From the NCBI RefSeq assembly GCF_900156165.1, contig NZ_FTMY01000016.1:1-64000 (forward strand): a DNA stretch of 64,000 nt, written 5' to 3'. Position numbers and translations under genes: made by a program. This DNA comes from Pseudacidovorax sp. RU35E. Lineage in GTDB: Bacteria > Pseudomonadota > Gammaproteobacteria > Burkholderiales > Burkholderiaceae_C. Below the pieces are notes generated by a model that saw only the letters and a list, made by a program, of their open reading frames with translations, made no database searches and was not told where the DNA came from. Positions 53,863 through 61,937 of this stretch are shown here, piece by piece (positions within the stretch are counted from its first letter, which is position 1; every line of letters begins with the position of its first letter).

Positions 53863-56406
53863 ATGACGGATGTCCTGAACCCTACGCGCCCGGCCTCCGC
53901 CTCGGCGCCCATCGATGCCGCGGCGTGGCCTCATCCCGACGGCCTGCAGGCCGACCGGATCGATGCCGCCTGCCGCCGCGCCTGCGAGGCCATCGCGCCC
54001 GCCTGGCCGCTGGAAAGCGCCATCGCCGTCAACCCGCACTGGTCGCGCATCGGCATGCCGGTGCGCCGGGTGGCGGCGCGCATGGCCGTGCTGGGCGGCA
54101 TCCAGGTCTTCCCGCCGCGCGAGCGGCAGGCGCAGGCCTGGGCCGACGGCCGCATCACCGCGGCCGACCTGCAGCAGGCCCTGCAGCAGTTGCATGAAGC
54201 GGAACTCACGCCCGAGGCCTGCGTAACCGCGCTGGCCCGGCCCCTGCCGGTGCAGCCGCTGCCGCTGCTGATCGACGTGCTCGACAACGACCCGCAGCGC
54301 CACACGCGCCTGGCCTGGCGGCAGGCCATCACCCACCAGGTCAGCCAGACCTGTGCCGCCTGGTTCGACATGCACCAGGCCGACTGGCAGCCGGCGCGCG
54401 CCCAGGGCCTCTACGCCTTCTGGCGCGAGACCCTGCAGCACGACCACGGCATCGGCCTGCTCATGGGCCTGCCGCACATCGGCCGCAGCATCGACGCGTT
54501 GCCGCCCACGGCCCGCGAGGCCGAGCAGTGGGTGATCGAGCGCCTGGGCCTGCCGCCGGCCGTGTGGGCCGACTACCTGGAGTCGGTGCTGCTCACGGTC
54601 AATGGCTGGGCGTCGTGGTGCGCCTACCTGGGCTGGCAGGCCCGGCTGGCGGGCCGCGAGGACCCGCACCTGCGCGAGCTGCTGGCCATCCGCCTGGCCT
54701 GGGGCGCGTTGCTGCTGGACTGCAAGGACGACCTCGCCGCGCGGCAGGCCTTCGCCACCGTGCAGCGCGAATGGGGCCGGGCGCCGGAGGCGCTGGCCCA
54801 GGCCGAAGTGGCGCTGCGTGTGGACGAGGTCTGGCAGGTGGCTCTGGAGATGGGTTACCAGCGCGGGCTGGCCGCCTCGCTGGCCGGCCGTGCGTCTTCC
54901 AACGGCCCGTCTGCGGCGACGCCCGAGGTGCAGGCCGCCTTCTGCATCGACGTGCGCAGCGAGCCGCTGCGCCGCGCGCTGGAGGCCGCCTGCCCCGGCA
55001 TGCAGACCCTGGGCGTGGCCGGCTTCTTCGGCCTGCCACTGGCGTACACGCCGCTGGGCACCGCCACCCAGCGGCCCCAACTGCCCGGACTGCTGGCGCC
55101 GGCCGTGACGGTGGGCGATGTGCTCGTGCCGACCGACGCCCGCGACGCTGCCGCAGCGCCGCAGCTGCAGCGGCAGGCCGGACAGGCCCGCCAGCATCGC
55201 TTCGCGCTCGGCGACCAGTGGCATGCGGCCAGCCGCTGGCCGGGCGCGGCCTTCTCCTTCGTCGAGGCCGCAGGGCTGGGTTATCTGGGCCGGCTGGGCC
55301 GCTGGCTGCGGCCTGGCTTGCAGGACCGCGCGCGCGACGATCTGGACGGCGTGCCCGCGCGCTATCGGTCGGTGTGCCGGCCGCAGCTGCTCGGCCTCGA
55401 TGCCGAGGCGCGTGTGGCCCTCGCGGCGCGCGTGCTGCAGTCCATGGGCCTCGTGCAGGGGCTCGCGCCCCTGGTGCTGCTCGTCGGCCATGGCAGCCAG
55501 TCGGCCAACAACGCGCATGCGGCTGCGCTGGACTGCGGTGCCTGCTGCGGCCAGACCGGCGAGGTCAATGCGCGCAGCCTGGCGCAGCTGCTCAACGATG
55601 CAGCGGTGCGTGCAGGCCTGAAGACGCAGGGCATCGACGTGCCCTCGGCCACGGTGTTCGTGGCCGCGCTGCACAACACGTCCACCGACGAGATCGAAGG
55701 CTTCGACCTCGACCGGCTCTCACCCGAGGCCCGTGCCCATTGGGACCGGCTGCAATCGGTCTTCGAGGCCGCCGCCGACCAGGTGCGTCGCGAGCGCGCG
55801 CCGCGCCTGGGGCTGGATCCGAAGGCGCCGGCCGATGCGCTGCATCGCCAGCTGCGCCGCCGCGCCAACGACGGAGCGCAGACCCGCCCCGAATGGGGAC
55901 TCGCGGGCAACGCCGCCTTCGTGATCGGGCCTCGGCATCGCACGCAGGGCGTGGACCTGCAGGGCCGGGCCTTCCTGCACGACTACGACGCCGCACAGGA
56001 CCCCGGGGGCCAGTTGCTCACGCAACTGATGACGGCCCCCATGCTGGTCACGCACTGGATCAACTGGCAGTACCACGCATCCACCTGCGACCCGGTGCGG
56101 CTGGGCAGCGGCAACAAGCTGCTGCACAACGTGGTGGGTGGCACCCTGGGCGTGTTCGAGGGCAATGGCGGCGACCTGCGCATCGGCCTGTCGCGTCAGT
56201 CGCTGCACGATGGACAGCGCTGGGTGCACGAGCCGCTGCGACTCACGGTGGTCATCGATGCGCCGCAGGCCGCCATCGATGCGGTGATCGCGGAGCATGC
56301 CGTGGTGCGCGATCTGCTGGCCAATGGCTGGCTGCATCTGTGGCGCTTCGAAGGCCTCACCCTGCAGCGCCTTGCCGAAGGCCGGTGGCAGATGCTGGCC
56401 TGCTGA
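53863..56406 (+). CDS. dabA: DabA, carbonic-anhydrase-like subunit of an inorganic-carbon pump (DUF2309)
   Basis: An 847-residue DUF2309/UPF0753 protein. DabA is thought to hydrate CO2 vectorially in the cytosol, driven by cation flow through DabB, raising bicarbonate. The zinc-site residues known for DabA are kept with the right spacing: Cys361 and Asp363 in AAFCIDVRSEPLR, His543 in LVGHGSQSANN, and Cys558 in LDCGACCG. Start has GGAGAA upstream; it follows dabB by 33 bases. DabAB is found in autotrophs and in some heterotrophs that need bicarbonate. No RuBisCO or carboxysome genes are in the window. Confidence 0.93.
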   Translation: MTDVLNPTRPASASAPIDAAAWPHPDGLQADRIDAACRRACEAIAPAWPLESAIAVNPHWSRIGMPVRRVAARMAVLGGIQVFPPRERQAQAWADGRITAADLQQALQQLHEAELTPEACVTALARPLPVQPLPLLIDVLDNDPQRHTRLAWRQAITHQVSQTCAAWFDMHQADWQPARAQGLYAFWRETLQHDHGIGLLMGLPHIGRSIDALPPTAREAEQWVIERLGLPPAVWADYLESVLLTVNGWASWCAYLGWQARLAGREDPHLRELLAIRLAWGALLLDCKDDLAARQAFATVQREWGRAPEALAQAEVALRVDEVWQVALEMGYQRGLAASLAGRASSNGPSAATPEVQAAFCIDVRSEPLRRALEAACPGMQTLGVAGFFGLPLAYTPLGTATQRPQLPGLLAPAVTVGDVLVPTDARDAAAAPQLQRQAGQARQHRFALGDQWHAASRWPGAAFSFVEAAGLGYLGRLGRWLRPGLQDRARDDLDGVPARYRSVCRPQLLGLDAEARVALAARVLQSMGLVQGLAPLVLLVGHGSQSANNAHAAALDCGACCGQTGEVNARSLAQLLNDAAVRAGLKTQGIDVPSATVFVAALHNTSTDEIEGFDLDRLSPEARAHWDRLQSVFEAAADQVRRERAPRLGLDPKAPADALHRQLRRRANDGAQTRPEWGLAGNAAFVIGPRHRTQGVDLQGRAFLHDYDAAQDPGGQLLTQLMTAPMLVTHWINWQYHASTCDPVRLGSGNKLLHNVVGGTLGVFEGNGGDLRIGLSRQSLHDGQRWVHEPLRLTVVIDAPQAAIDAVIAEHAVVRDLLANGWLHLWRFEGLTLQRLAEGRWQMLAC

Positions 56407-56430
56407 GAACACGGACGCACAAAAGAAAAA

Positions 56431-56452
56431 GGGCCCGCCGTAAAGCGGGCCC
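56431..56452 (-). terminator. Terminator read on the minus strand (fasciclin gene)
   Basis: GGGCCCGC-N6-GCGGGCCC is a perfect 8-bp stem. On the minus strand it is followed by TTTTTCTTTT, so it works as a rho-independent terminator for transcripts coming from the fasciclin gene about 135 bases away. On the plus strand it follows dabA but lacks a T run, so termination there is less certain. Confidence 0.75.
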
Positions 56453-56587
56453 CAAGACAGTCCGGGTGTGGAGGGGAAGCAAGAGTCGGAGAAGATCGGA
56501 CTGCCGAGAACGAAGTATGTCGGGGTGCCCTGAGTGGCACCTGACGGTCCGCACGCAAAGGTAACGGACCGTGCATGCCTTCTCTGT

Positions 56588-57154
56588 TTACTTGGGCAGC
56601 AGCACCTTGTCGACGACGTGGATCACGCCGTTGGACTGGTAGACGTCGGCGATGGTCACGTCGGCCGAGCCACCCTTCTCGTCGGTGATCTTCACGGTGT
56701 TGCCACTGCGCGTGGCCTTGAGGCTGCCGCCCGCGGCGGTCTTGAGCATGGCCTGGCCCTTGCCGTCGTCGATCATCTTCACGAGCGCCGCCGAGTCGAC
56801 CTTGCCGGGCACGACGTGGTAGGTCAGGATGGTCGTCAGCTGGCCCTTGTTCTCGGGCTTGAGCAGCGTGTCGACGGTGCCGGCGGGCAGGGCGGCGAAG
56901 GCCGCATTGGTGGGCGCGAAGACGGTGAAGGGGCCCGGGCCCTTGAGGGTCTCGACCAGTCCGGCGGCCTTGACGGCGGCCACGAGCGTGGTGTGGTCCT
57001 TGGAGTTGACGGCGTTGTCGATGATGTCCTTGGTGGCATACATCGGCGCGCCACCCACCGTGACCTGGGCCAATGCACCGATGGCGGCGCCGCCGAGTGC
57101 GAAGGCGGTGAGGGTGGCGGCGAGGATGCGGGTGGTCTTCTTCGAGAAAGTCAT
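56588..57154 (-). CDS. Secreted fasciclin-domain protein
   Basis: A 188-residue exported protein with one fasciclin (FAS1) domain. Signal peptide: RILAATLTAFALGGAAIGALAQ. The FAS1 H1 box is GPGPFTVFAPTNAAFAALP, and the domain ends GVIHVVDKVLLPK, the H2 box. FAS1 proteins mediate adhesion or surface binding; M. tuberculosis MPT70/MPT83 are relatives. AAGGAG lies six bases before the ATG at 57154. A candidate ECF promoter (57206-57230) shared with the sigma-factor and DUF3455 genes lies about 50 bases upstream. Confidence 0.92.
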   Translation of the reverse strand: MTFSKKTTRILAATLTAFALGGAAIGALAQVTVGGAPMYATKDIIDNAVNSKDHTTLVAAVKAAGLVETLKGPGPFTVFAPTNAAFAALPAGTVDTLLKPENKGQLTTILTYHVVPGKVDSAALVKMIDDGKGQAMLKTAAGGSLKATRSGNTVKITDEKGGSADVTIADVYQSNGVIHVVDKVLLPK

Positions 57155-57205
57155 GGGAGGCTCCTTGGGATGTTGTACCGCCGGATATGCGGCAGGCTCT
57201 TCAGA

Positions 57206-57230
57206 TACGGGTCTGTGCATCGCCTGGATG
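57206..57230 (-). promoter_or_regulatory. Candidate ECF-sigma promoter of the fasciclin gene
   Basis: On the minus strand, CATCC (57230-57226) and CGTA (57209-57206) are separated by exactly 16 bases. The same two boxes with the same spacing are found upstream of the ECF sigma gene and of the DUF3455 gene. The preceding base makes it CCATCC, which matches the mycobacterial SigK -35 as I recall it. Start of transcription would be about 40 bases before the ATG. Confidence 0.72.
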
Positions 57231-57397
57231 GCATCGGCCTGCAGTGCGTCCGGGAATGCATCCGCAGCGCGGTGTTCTGCGTAGATGGACCCCCTTCGTT
57301 CTGCGCTGCGCTGGTTGGTGTGTTGAAGGCTCGCGATTGTCGTGACGTGCCTTGCAGGGGCAGGCGCTTGACTTCCTTGATGGGGCACATGGGGCGC

Positions 57398-57566
57398 GCC
57401 GCTAACCGGCAGAGGGCACCGGCATGCGCGCTCCCGGTGCACGCTCGCGCCAACCGGCTTGCCTCACGTCGCGGGTGCCCGCATTCCACCGACGTGCTTG
57501 CCGTACTGCACGGCGCCGCGAATGGCACCTCCGCACGCACACCGGTGCCCTCTGCCGGTTAGCGGC
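57398..57566. repeat. 169-bp element with 25-bp perfect inverted repeats
   Basis: Bases 57398-57422 are exactly complementary to 57542-57566 (25 of 25). Pairing continues imperfectly for a few bases inside. The 119-base interior has no recognisable gene. It lies in the 490-base gap between the fasciclin promoter and the anti-sigma gene, most of which otherwise shows nothing. The structure suggests a palindromic mobile repeat or a strong hairpin terminator for the anti-sigma transcript. Confidence 0.8.
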
Positions 57567-57644
57567 ACAGCGGTAGAAGGAGCGACGTCCGTCGTCGCGC
57601 AGACCCCGATCAGTCCACTCGGGTGACCGGATGCCGTGAACCCA

Positions 57645-58394
57645 TCACAGCGTCTTCTCGATCAACGCCCCATGGAACAGCACCGGCCCCGTCGGCCCAC
57701 GGTCGCCGGACACCCCGCCCTTGGGTTCCAGGCTGACCGCGAGCGCCGGTGCCTGCTGCAGCATCTGCGCGCTGGCCGCCAGGCGCATGCCCGCGGGCGA
57801 ATCCACCACCCCCAGCGACTGCGGCGTGCGCCCTGGCGGCAGGGCCCACAGCTGCAGCGACCGATCGGCCGCCACGCTGAAGTCGCCTACGCGCTGCAGC
57901 GTCAGCTGACGGTGCTTCGCATCGAAGGTCACCAGCATCGACGCGGCCGAGCGATCGTCGTTCAGCACCGCCACGTACTTGACCTGCTGCGCCTCGCGCG
58001 CCTGATACCAGAACTGCAGGCCGATCACGCCCGCCAGCACCGTGGCCGCCAGGCCCGCGGCCGATGCGCCGCGCCATATCGCCAGGCTTCCCCACCAGCC
58101 GGTGGTGCGTACCGGCGGCGTCGGTGCCGCCTTCTGCTGGGCCAGACGGGTCTCTTGCAGGTCGGCGTCGACCAGGTTGCGGATGCGGGTCCACACCGCG
58201 GCGGGCGGGTTCACCGCGGGCGCGAGTTCGACGAAGCCCGTGAGCCGCTCGCGCCACAGCAGCGCGCTCGCCCGCACGGCGGGCTGCTCGCGGGCCAGGG
58301 CCTCGAAGCGTCGGCGTGCGCCGCCGCGCAGCGTGCCCAGGGCATGGGCGGCCGACAGCAGGGCCAGCAGGCGGGCATTGGCGGCGATGTTCAT
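57645..58394 (-). CDS. Membrane anti-sigma factor (RskA-type)
   Basis: A 249-residue single-pass anti-sigma factor. The cytosolic N-terminal domain (LLALLSAAHALGTLRGGARRRFEAL) lacks the HxxxCxxC zinc motif, as in RskA-type proteins. One membrane helix is at about residues 105-127 (GLAATVLAGVIGLQFWY). The periplasmic RskA-like domain ends with SGDRGPTGPVLFHGALIE, typical of the family. It lies 43 bases after the ECF sigma gene and should hold that sigma factor inactive until regulated proteolysis releases it. The inducing signal is unknown. Confidence 0.88.
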   Translation of the reverse strand: MNIAANARLLALLSAAHALGTLRGGARRRFEALAREQPAVRASALLWRERLTGFVELAPAVNPPAAVWTRIRNLVDADLQETRLAQQKAAPTPPVRTTGWWGSLAIWRGASAAGLAATVLAGVIGLQFWYQAREAQQVKYVAVLNDDRSAASMLVTFDAKHRQLTLQRVGDFSVAADRSLQLWALPPGRTPQSLGVVDSPAGMRLAASAQMLQQAPALAVSLEPKGGVSGDRGPTGPVLFHGALIEKTL

Positions 58395-58437
58395 GAGAGT
58401 CTCCTCGGGCCGGTGGCGGTGGAAGGACGGGGCCGGG

Positions 58438-59016
58438 TCATGACGCCTGCTCCATGCAGCCGCGCAGCTTTTCCAGCCCGCGCCGGATCCAGGTCTTGAT
58501 GGTGCCCAGCGGCTGCGCCAGTCGGGCGGCCAGTTCGCTGTGGCTCAGGTCGCGCAGATAGGCAAGCGACAAGGCCTCGCGCTGGGCATTGGGCAATTGC
58601 TGCAGGCACTGGTGCAGGAGCCAGGCCTGCTCGCTCGCATCGGCCAGCTCCTGCGGACCGGGTTCGGCCGCGGGCAGGGTGTCGGCCAGCGTCTCGCTGA
58701 ACTCCTGCGTCACGTCGCTGCCCTGGCTGGTCTGGCGGCGCAGCAGGTCGAGTGCCCGGCTGCGCACGATCAGCGACATCCAGGCCATCGGCGGGCTGAG
58801 CGTCGCGCGGTAGTCGGGCGCCGAGCGCCAGATGGTGAGGAAGGCCTCCTGCAACACGTCCTCTGCCCACTCGTGCTGCCGCACCACGCGCATCGCAAGG
58901 CCGAAGAGCCGGGACGACGTGCGTTCGTACAGCGTCTGAAGGGCAGAGGCGTCGCGGCGGGCGACACGGTCGAGCAGACGCAGCAGCTCGTCGTCGGGCG
59001 TCGTGGCAAAAGGCAT
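58438..59016 (-). CDS. ECF sigma factor (SigK/ECF19-like)
   Basis: A 192-residue extracytoplasmic-function sigma factor. Region 2 contains FGLAMRVVRQHEWAEDVLQE and AFLTIWRSAPDY; region 4 contains REALSLAYLRDLSHSELAAR with LAQPLGTIKTWIRRGLEKLR as the -35-binding helix. The start at 59016 is supported because the longer open frame would run back through the gene's own promoter. With an RskA-type anti-sigma factor and a fasciclin gene downstream it matches the SigK-RskA arrangement. It is divergent from the DUF3455 gene. Confidence 0.92.
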   Translation of the reverse strand: MPFATTPDDELLRLLDRVARRDASALQTLYERTSSRLFGLAMRVVRQHEWAEDVLQEAFLTIWRSAPDYRATLSPPMAWMSLIVRSRALDLLRRQTSQGSDVTQEFSETLADTLPAAEPGPQELADASEQAWLLHQCLQQLPNAQREALSLAYLRDLSHSELAARLAQPLGTIKTWIRRGLEKLRGCMEQAS

Positions 59017-59052
59017 CAGGGGATTGTGCTGGAGCGGCGGCCATCCGTCGGG

Positions 59053-59077
59053 TACGCACGCCACGACCGGACGGATG
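59053..59077 (-). promoter_or_regulatory. Candidate ECF-sigma promoter of the sigma-factor operon
   Basis: On the minus strand, CATCC (59077-59073), a 16-base spacer, then CGTA (59056-59053), about 37 bases before the sigma-factor ATG. Same motif and spacing as upstream of the fasciclin and DUF3455 genes, which implies positive autoregulation. Confidence 0.72.
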
Positions 59078-59129
59078 CGGGTGGCTGCCGCCGTCGAATT
59101 CACAAATCCTTCAACTTTCGCAGGGTATG

Positions 59130-59154
59130 CATCCGCACCATGGCGGCCGCCGTA
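59130..59154 (+). promoter_or_regulatory. Candidate ECF-sigma promoter of the DUF3455 gene
   Basis: On the plus strand, CATCC (59130-59134), a 16-base spacer (59135-59150), then CGTA (59151-59154), facing the DUF3455 lipoprotein gene. Both this and the opposite-strand sigma promoter share GCATCC. The leader to the ATG would be about 95 bases. Confidence 0.7.
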
Positions 59155-59255
59155 AGTCGAGGAGGGGCAGGCAGCAAGGACAGGTCGCGGAGGGCGACCG
59201 CCGACTGCCACCCCTGAACCTCAACCCTGTTGCTGCCCATCGAAAGGAGCATTCC

Positions 59256-59804
59256 ATGCGCATGACCGCCCCCCTGGCCACCGTGGCCGCCGCCGTCCTT
59301 CTGTCCGCCTGTGCCACCGCGCCCATGCCGGCCCCGTATTCCCAGGCCAGCCTGCCCGCACCGGTGCAAGTCCCGGCGGGCCAACGCGTGGCCCTCGAGA
59401 CGGTGGGCGCCGGCACCATCACTTACGAATGCCGTGCCAAGGCCGACATGGCCGGCCAGTTCGAATGGTTCTTCGTGGGCCCCGACGCTCGCCTGATGGA
59501 CCGCAGCGGCAAGGCCATCGGCCGTTACTACGGCCCGCCCGCCACCTGGGAGAGCATGGACGGCTCCAAGGTCACCGCCACGCAGGTCGCCGTCGCGCCG
59601 GGCGGTGCCGGCAACATCCCGCTGCAGCTGGTCAAGGCCAACCCGGCGATGGGCATGGGCGCCATGCAGGGCGTGAGCTACATCCAGCGCGTGGCCACCA
59701 AGGGCGGCGTCGCACCCATGATGCCCTGCGGCCAGGCGACCCTGGGCCAGAAGCAGGTGGTCAACTACCAGGCCGACTACATCTTCTACAAGCCGACGAT
59801 GTAA
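59256..59804 (+). CDS. DUF3455 lipoprotein
   Basis: A 182-residue predicted lipoprotein. The signal peptide ends in lipobox LLSAC (Cys19), so it is anchored in a membrane, probably the outer one. The mature part is a DUF3455 domain, seen in VALETVGAGTITYECRAK, AGQFEWFFVGPDARLMDRSGK and ...KQVVNYQADYIFYKP near the end. Function of DUF3455 is unknown. AAAGGAG lies upstream of the ATG at 59256. It is divergent from the ECF sigma gene and shares its promoter motif, so it should be co-induced with the fasciclin protein. Confidence 0.88.
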   Translation: MRMTAPLATVAAAVLLSACATAPMPAPYSQASLPAPVQVPAGQRVALETVGAGTITYECRAKADMAGQFEWFFVGPDARLMDRSGKAIGRYYGPPATWESMDGSKVTATQVAVAPGGAGNIPLQLVKANPAMGMGAMQGVSYIQRVATKGGVAPMMPCGQATLGQKQVVNYQADYIFYKPTM

Positions 59805-59813
59805 GGCACATGT

Positions 59814-59836
59814 CCCTCTCCCCTTGCGGGAGAGGG
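59814..59836. repeat. Perfect 9-bp hairpin after the DUF3455 gene
   Basis: CCCTCTCCC-CTTGC-GGGAGAGGG, ten bases after the stop codon. It lacks a T run. This sequence type recurs in intergenic DNA of many Burkholderiales and Xanthomonadales, and may help end the DUF3455 transcript. Confidence 0.55.
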
Positions 59837-59982
59837 TCACAAGACGGGGCGCCGGCCGGCCCCCCCCGTGTTGTTCGCAAAGGACGTGGGCATCCGTCCG
59901 ACAAGGCACCGCGGCTTTGCCGTCCGGCCTCCTTCCTGCTGGCGGGGTACAACCTTCGTTGACCTTCACGCCCCCCGGCATC

Positions 59983-61937
<1,955 letters not shown>

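Follow-up and report, generated by a model that had tools for sequence, protein, structure and literature searches.

The mycobacterial SigK promoter consists of CCATCC in the -35 region and CGAAT in the -10 region, and the mycobacterial proteins MPT70 and MPT83 are fasciclin proteins. The SigK-RskA system is also found beyond mycobacteria: a fasciclin-sigK-rskA cassette has been published for Gram-negative bacteria, and the mpt83-sigK-rskA cassette of Yersinia has a SigK site upstream of mpt83; the available text of the same paper gives the roles of redox cysteines 133 and 183 in M. tuberculosis SigK and calls the start signal of the SigK cascade unknown (PMC7509140). According to the accessible part of a second paper, little is known of the role of the SigK regulon (PMC5547695). 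M. tuberculosis SigK itself is placed in ECF18 by one published paper and its anti-sigma factor in AS19 by PMC7406223, both sources being available in excerpt. Among open-licence papers, we found no description of such a regulon in the family of the host studied here.

We analyzed a 64,000-nucleotide stretch of DNA from Pseudacidovorax sp. RU35E (the window) that carries a locus of this kind. From its sequence, we estimate a probability of about 85% that the locus forms the core of an envelope stress regulon of the SigK/RskA type; it is one variant of an already published kind, the fasciclin-sigK-rskA cassette known in Gram-negatives. The sigma gene (58438-59016, minus strand) encodes a SigK-like protein with Sigma-70 regions 2 and 4 (Pfam Sigma70_r2 and r4) and no other domains, the architecture of an ECF sigma factor. 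We took the ATG at 59016 as its start; searches used the reading frame from 59034. A likeness to SigK had been claimed in a preliminary description from the -35 box, and the protein comparison bears this out: the best solved relative is M. tuberculosis SigK (4nqw, E 1.3e-27), and SigK is the best NCBIfam model listed, at 142.3 bits against a cut-off of 226. Because this score is under the cut-off, we term the protein SigK-type, not SigK. Both redox cysteines of 4nqw are aligned in the window protein and, by our own count, which allows for a 17-residue tag on the 4nqw chain, they fit residues 133 and 183 of M. tuberculosis SigK. The nearest named relatives of the protein are Pseudacidovorax records.

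The gene adjoining sigma (57645-58394, minus) encodes a membrane anti-sigma factor that matches the RskA_C domain only (PF10099, 78.5 bits, E 7.5e-22), and not the ChrR cupin that marks ECF11; compared with solved structures, it gave one match, at chance level. An anti-sigma homolog lies beside sigma in 80 of 82 loci outside the genus and in 12 of 12 within it, and the relationship of the pair to SigK and RskA is established. The fasciclin-domain gene follows (56588-57154, minus; PF02469, 125.7 bits), and divergent from sigma is a DUF3455 gene (59256-59804, plus; PF11937, 119.6 bits). Judged by eye, the fasciclin N-terminus resembles a signal peptide and the DUF3455 N-terminus that of a lipoprotein (LSAC). 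PADLOC found no match for either protein, and a tRNA search of the window found none. Between the fasciclin and anti-sigma genes, at 57398-57566, is a 34-base inverted repeat, 91% complementary, with 101 bases between its arms; in alignments inspected by eye, four of five clade relatives have related sequence, differing in length, between these two genes, and one (L029) lacks it. Just past the fasciclin gene lies the gene for DabA, an inorganic carbon transporter subunit (53863-56406).

The preliminary description had reported three CATCC-N16-CGTA promoter sites, and all three are exact, each aimed at its own gene. The predicted promoter of the sigma/anti-sigma operon (59077-59053, minus) places 36 bases between CGTA and the ATG at 59016, and the predicted DUF3455 promoter lies at 59130-59154 (plus). 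The predicted fasciclin promoter (57230-57206, minus) reads GCCATCC-N16-CGTATCT, so that a predicted sigma site stands upstream of a fasciclin-type gene, as in SigK systems; its family-matrix score is low (8.3), GC taking the place of the TG that precedes CATCC or AATCC in the family. The count of three overlooked a fourth exact copy at 57259-57283 (plus), back to back with the fasciclin site. Against these four copies, 100 dinucleotide shuffles of the window averaged 0.19 copies and never exceeded 2, and spacers of 10-23 other than 16 yielded a single CATCC/CGTA match (N12). The motif and its fixed spacing are established; their origin in composition or chance is rejected on the shuffles, the spacer controls, and the conservation described below. 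The original chance argument, one occurrence per 4^9 positions, is rough as an estimate: the whole genome holds 25 copies of CATCC-N16-CGTA, along with 12 of the AATCC form. We take the majority of the copies outside the window to be chance, as a group rather than site by site. The case is carried by four sites packed in ~2 kb plus conservation in relatives.

Sigma homologs at E 1e-30 or better occur in 197 of 399 genomes of the host's family. We compared the 86 listed loci from genomes other than G000 that matched at E below 1e-55, of which 82 belong to other genera, together with 14 more distant loci and 8 named loci. Checked in these relatives, the N16 motif is kept upstream of sigma and fasciclin orthologs alike. 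A dyad search upstream of sigma at the 82 loci (5+4 bases, gaps 10-21) returned GAATC-N17-CGTA (47), TGAAT-N18-CGTA (47), and AATCC-N16-CGTA (45) at the top. ATCC-N16-CGT precedes sigma in 63 of these 82 close orthologous loci and at all 12 loci from the genus, a set in which some genomes appear twice. The remaining 19 comprise 12 in which a same-strand site lies 0.8-2.3 kb upstream, 3 with a site on the opposite strand only, and 4 without any site (L101, L104, L112, and L073, the last with 752 bases upstream only). Conservation upstream of close sigma orthologs is thereby established. Four of the 14 distant ECF loci carry ATCC-N16-CGT; the other 10 have no site within 3 kb. Elsewhere in the host's taxonomic class, where 65 of 369 genomes have a sigma match at E 1e-25, we found ATCC-N16-CGTA in 6 of 28 loci examined out of 74 listed, in some cases far upstream, and in none of the other 22. 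TGCATCC-N16-CGTAT precedes sigma on a Thiothrix plasmid and fasciclin on a Pantoea plasmid, and two Caballeronia plasmid loci have no sigma-adjacent, sigma-directed ATCC-N16-CGTA. A Variovorax plasmid (L416) carries the same four genes, at 65-75% protein identity, with four sites in the same arrangement.

The fasciclin genes follow the motif closely. Orthologs with 60% identity or more have an N16 site in 26 of 32 distinct upstream regions, compared with 0 of 21 for paralogs, and 17 of the 26 site-bearing orthologs are more than 500 kb away from sigma or on a different contig. Whole-genome motif matches in four genomes (G099, G262, G383, G225) land just upstream of fasciclin. Six orthologs have no N16 site: two have none at all and four have N17. 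The N17 orthologs (L204, L210, L215, L216) come from one genus (g40) and have the same boxes. DUF3455 orthologs have a site directly upstream in only 25 of 47 cases. In several other genomes (L075, L139, L150, and others), DUF3455 genes form a row with ferritin-like and cytochrome-c-like genes, divergent from sigma, and the order within the row differs between genomes. At the sequence level, the conserved N16 motif supports the proposed autoregulation and the promoters proposed for sigma, DUF3455, and fasciclin.

The same description had predicted a self-contained regulon of three transcripts, and this did not hold up: besides the fourth site in the window, sites stand before other genes in the host genome and in relatives, and we reject a three-gene regulon. 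Some high-matrix-score sites among the 37 of the host genome precede DUF4331, amine oxidase, and DUF4148-like genes (the last assignment is below the Pfam cut-off); another site precedes a low-molecular-weight phosphatase gene, and a lower-scoring one a molybdopterin oxidoreductase gene. A relative, G177, has sites before look-alikes of the DUF4331, amine-oxidase, DUF4148-like, and low-molecular-weight phosphatase genes, matched by eye from protein starts. The collected loci contain 192 distinct TGMATCC-N16-CGTA sites, and the genes that recur downstream, besides sigma and DUF3455, are DUF3034 (23), fasciclin (18), ferritin-like (9), cytochrome-c-like (8), alpha/beta hydrolase (6), DUF1365 (5), DUF4331 (4), HupE (4), cupredoxin-like by eye (3), and MsrP-like (2), MsrP being our own label for a molybdopterin oxidoreductase match. 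Pfam searches with representatives support these names, save for the cytochrome-c-like protein (no Pfam match) and the cupredoxin-like protein (weak matches only). In the host genome, the site with the highest score of all (L022) is not followed by any clear gene. In our judgement, some matches in relatives look like coding coincidences, such as one upstream of a hisE-like gene and one near the end of the amine-oxidase gene before DUF1365.

Genome-wide counts establish the tie between motif and sigma gene. TGMATCC-N16-CGTA occurs at 72 sites in 12 sigma-bearing genomes, hand-chosen among those with close orthologs, versus 4 when the pattern is reversed; in 12 genomes that lack a homolog at E 1e-30, drawn from 20 listed without a match, there are 13 sites and 1 reversed. 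For TGAATCC-N16-CGTA, the counts are 61 in the sigma-bearing and 4 in the sigma-less set. Because the pattern was partly derived from the sigma promoters of these genomes, we also left sites near sigma out of the count, and 43 TGAATCC sites more than 5 kb from sigma remain, versus 4 in the sigma-less genomes (p 2e-8). TGCATCC-N16-CGTA, which is closer than TGAATCC to the CATCC sites of the window, shows no enrichment (11 sigma-bearing versus 9 sigma-less).

Could another sigma factor account for these sites? The host genome encodes an RpoE-ChrR (ECF11-type) pair at L379:9288-10618 (contig C11), where an ECF sigma gene is followed by that for a ChrR cupin protein, with an amine oxidase gene divergent from this sigma and a cyclopropane-synthase-like gene also beside the pair. 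It is possible, if rather doubtful, that this sigma factor partly or mainly reads the promoters as part of a shared response to singlet oxygen or peroxide. Its own promoter, TGATCC-N16-CGTAA in the host genome, G177, and G320, equals the P. syringae consensus TGATCCn16CGTA given in the available text of PMC5507510, and a similar consensus appears for S. oneidensis in that of PMC4336711. In excerpts of two further papers, the table of the RpoE regulon of R. sphaeroides includes the fasciclin RSP_1409 (PMC7074977), and an A. brasilense fasciclin is said to be under RpoE-ChrR (PMC10949492). With promoters this nearly identical, the ChrR-linked sigma could read some window-type sites, and the amine-oxidase, DUF1365, and cyclopropane-synthase sites are ambiguous as targets of the SigK-like sigma because the RpoE-ChrR pair adjoins them. 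The genome of G320 counts against the SigK-type reading: it has the ChrR pair and no close SigK-like ortholog, its best sigma match being the ChrR-linked sigma, and still keeps the fasciclin site pair. The base before ATCC, however, differs between the two promoter types. All three RpoE promoters examined have G there, whereas the 75 SigK-like sigma promoters have A 52 times, C 22 times, T once, and never G; at fasciclin sites we find A 19 and C 7, and at DUF3455 sites A 16, C 9, and G 1. The TGAATCC sites, moreover, track the SigK-like gene in the 61-to-4 comparison above, although the presence of the ChrR pair may be correlated with it.

We would be far more surprised if the motif were no sigma promoter at all and instead marked the binding site of a transcription regulator, or merely reflected composition or coding. 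The further copies scattered through the genome lean that way, and a crude codon-composition test flagged 24 of the 37 sites in open frames, though it flagged all four window sites too and is thus of little use. But the two blocks share a single spacing typical of ECF -35 and -10 boxes and are rare together at others, the sites are aimed at genes mostly tens to ~150 bases downstream, and the fourth site has constant boxes around a variable spacer.

The -35 box of that fourth site lies 28 bases from that of the fasciclin site at all 6 loci compared within the window's clade and also in G320, and 27 bases separate the equivalent pair in the Variovorax locus; none of the other 26 fasciclin orthologs compared has the site. 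Within the clade, its boxes are invariant (9 of 9 bases) as the spacer drifts (6 of 16 invariant). The site is aimed at the 3' end of the anti-sigma gene, and in L029 and L416 the -10 box ends ~30 bases from the stop codon. It might conceivably be a sigma-driven promoter of an antisense RNA into the 3' end of that gene, an improbable role; if this were so, active sigma factor would help to silence its own inhibitor. Two observations count against it: in the window, ~360 bases, among them the 34-base inverted repeat, intervene between the -10 box and the anti-sigma gene, and in G320 there is no anti-sigma homolog in the stretch examined. We saw no conserved gene downstream of the site. A known RNA family there is rejected: the three matches from an Rfam scan of 56300-60100 stayed under their gathering scores and fell together at 56421-56512, immediately beyond the stop codon of fasciclin.

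Under the SigK/RskA-type reading that we favor, the RskA-like membrane protein would hold the sigma factor at the membrane until an extracytoplasmic signal, probably oxidative, frees the sigma factor, which would then direct RNA polymerase to promoters resembling TG[A/C]ATCC-N16-CGTA. Its own operon would be one target, giving positive feedback; fasciclin, DUF3455, and, in other parts of the genome, several more genes for exported or redox proteins would be further ones. Many related bacteria keep this shared promoter signal even with the target genes far apart, and a conserved promoter rule with a multi-genome target list in environmental bacteria makes the SigK question approachable outside mycobacteria. 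Root-colonisation data for Delftia, as presented in the available text of PMC7725335, include a rise in four genes, one for fasciclin, a ferritin-like one that bears the next locus tag, and two for DUF3455; by analogy, a shared promoter may be one candidate explanation.

How does the locus compare with known systems? It shares with mycobacterial SigK-RskA the closest solved sigma factor, an RskA_C anti-sigma factor, both redox cysteines, and a fasciclin-family target. The window -35 box resembles CCATCC, present in full at the fasciclin site only, but the -10 box is CGTA(T), not CGAAT. Unlike the mycobacterial system and the Yersinia cassette, it has a divergent DUF3455 gene, and fasciclin often lies elsewhere in the genome. 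With RpoE-ChrR (ECF11) regulons, it shares a nearly identical promoter, TGATCC-N16-CGTA in the available text of PMC5507510, and overlapping kinds of target in the published excerpts, namely fasciclin and cyclopropane fatty acid synthase. It differs from them in having a membrane anti-sigma factor of the RskA_C type and not a ChrR cupin, and in having A or C, not G, before ATCC; the window sigma shares 30% identity with the ChrR-linked sigma encoded in the same genome. The Pantoea plasmid cassette (L419) also has TGCATCC-N16-CGTAT before fasciclin, with sigma and anti-sigma downstream, and its sigma and fasciclin proteins are 43% and 59% identical to those of the window. There, however, the genes form one tandem cassette, with no DUF3455 match in the 8.5 kb examined, whereas the window sets a DUF3455 gene divergent from sigma.
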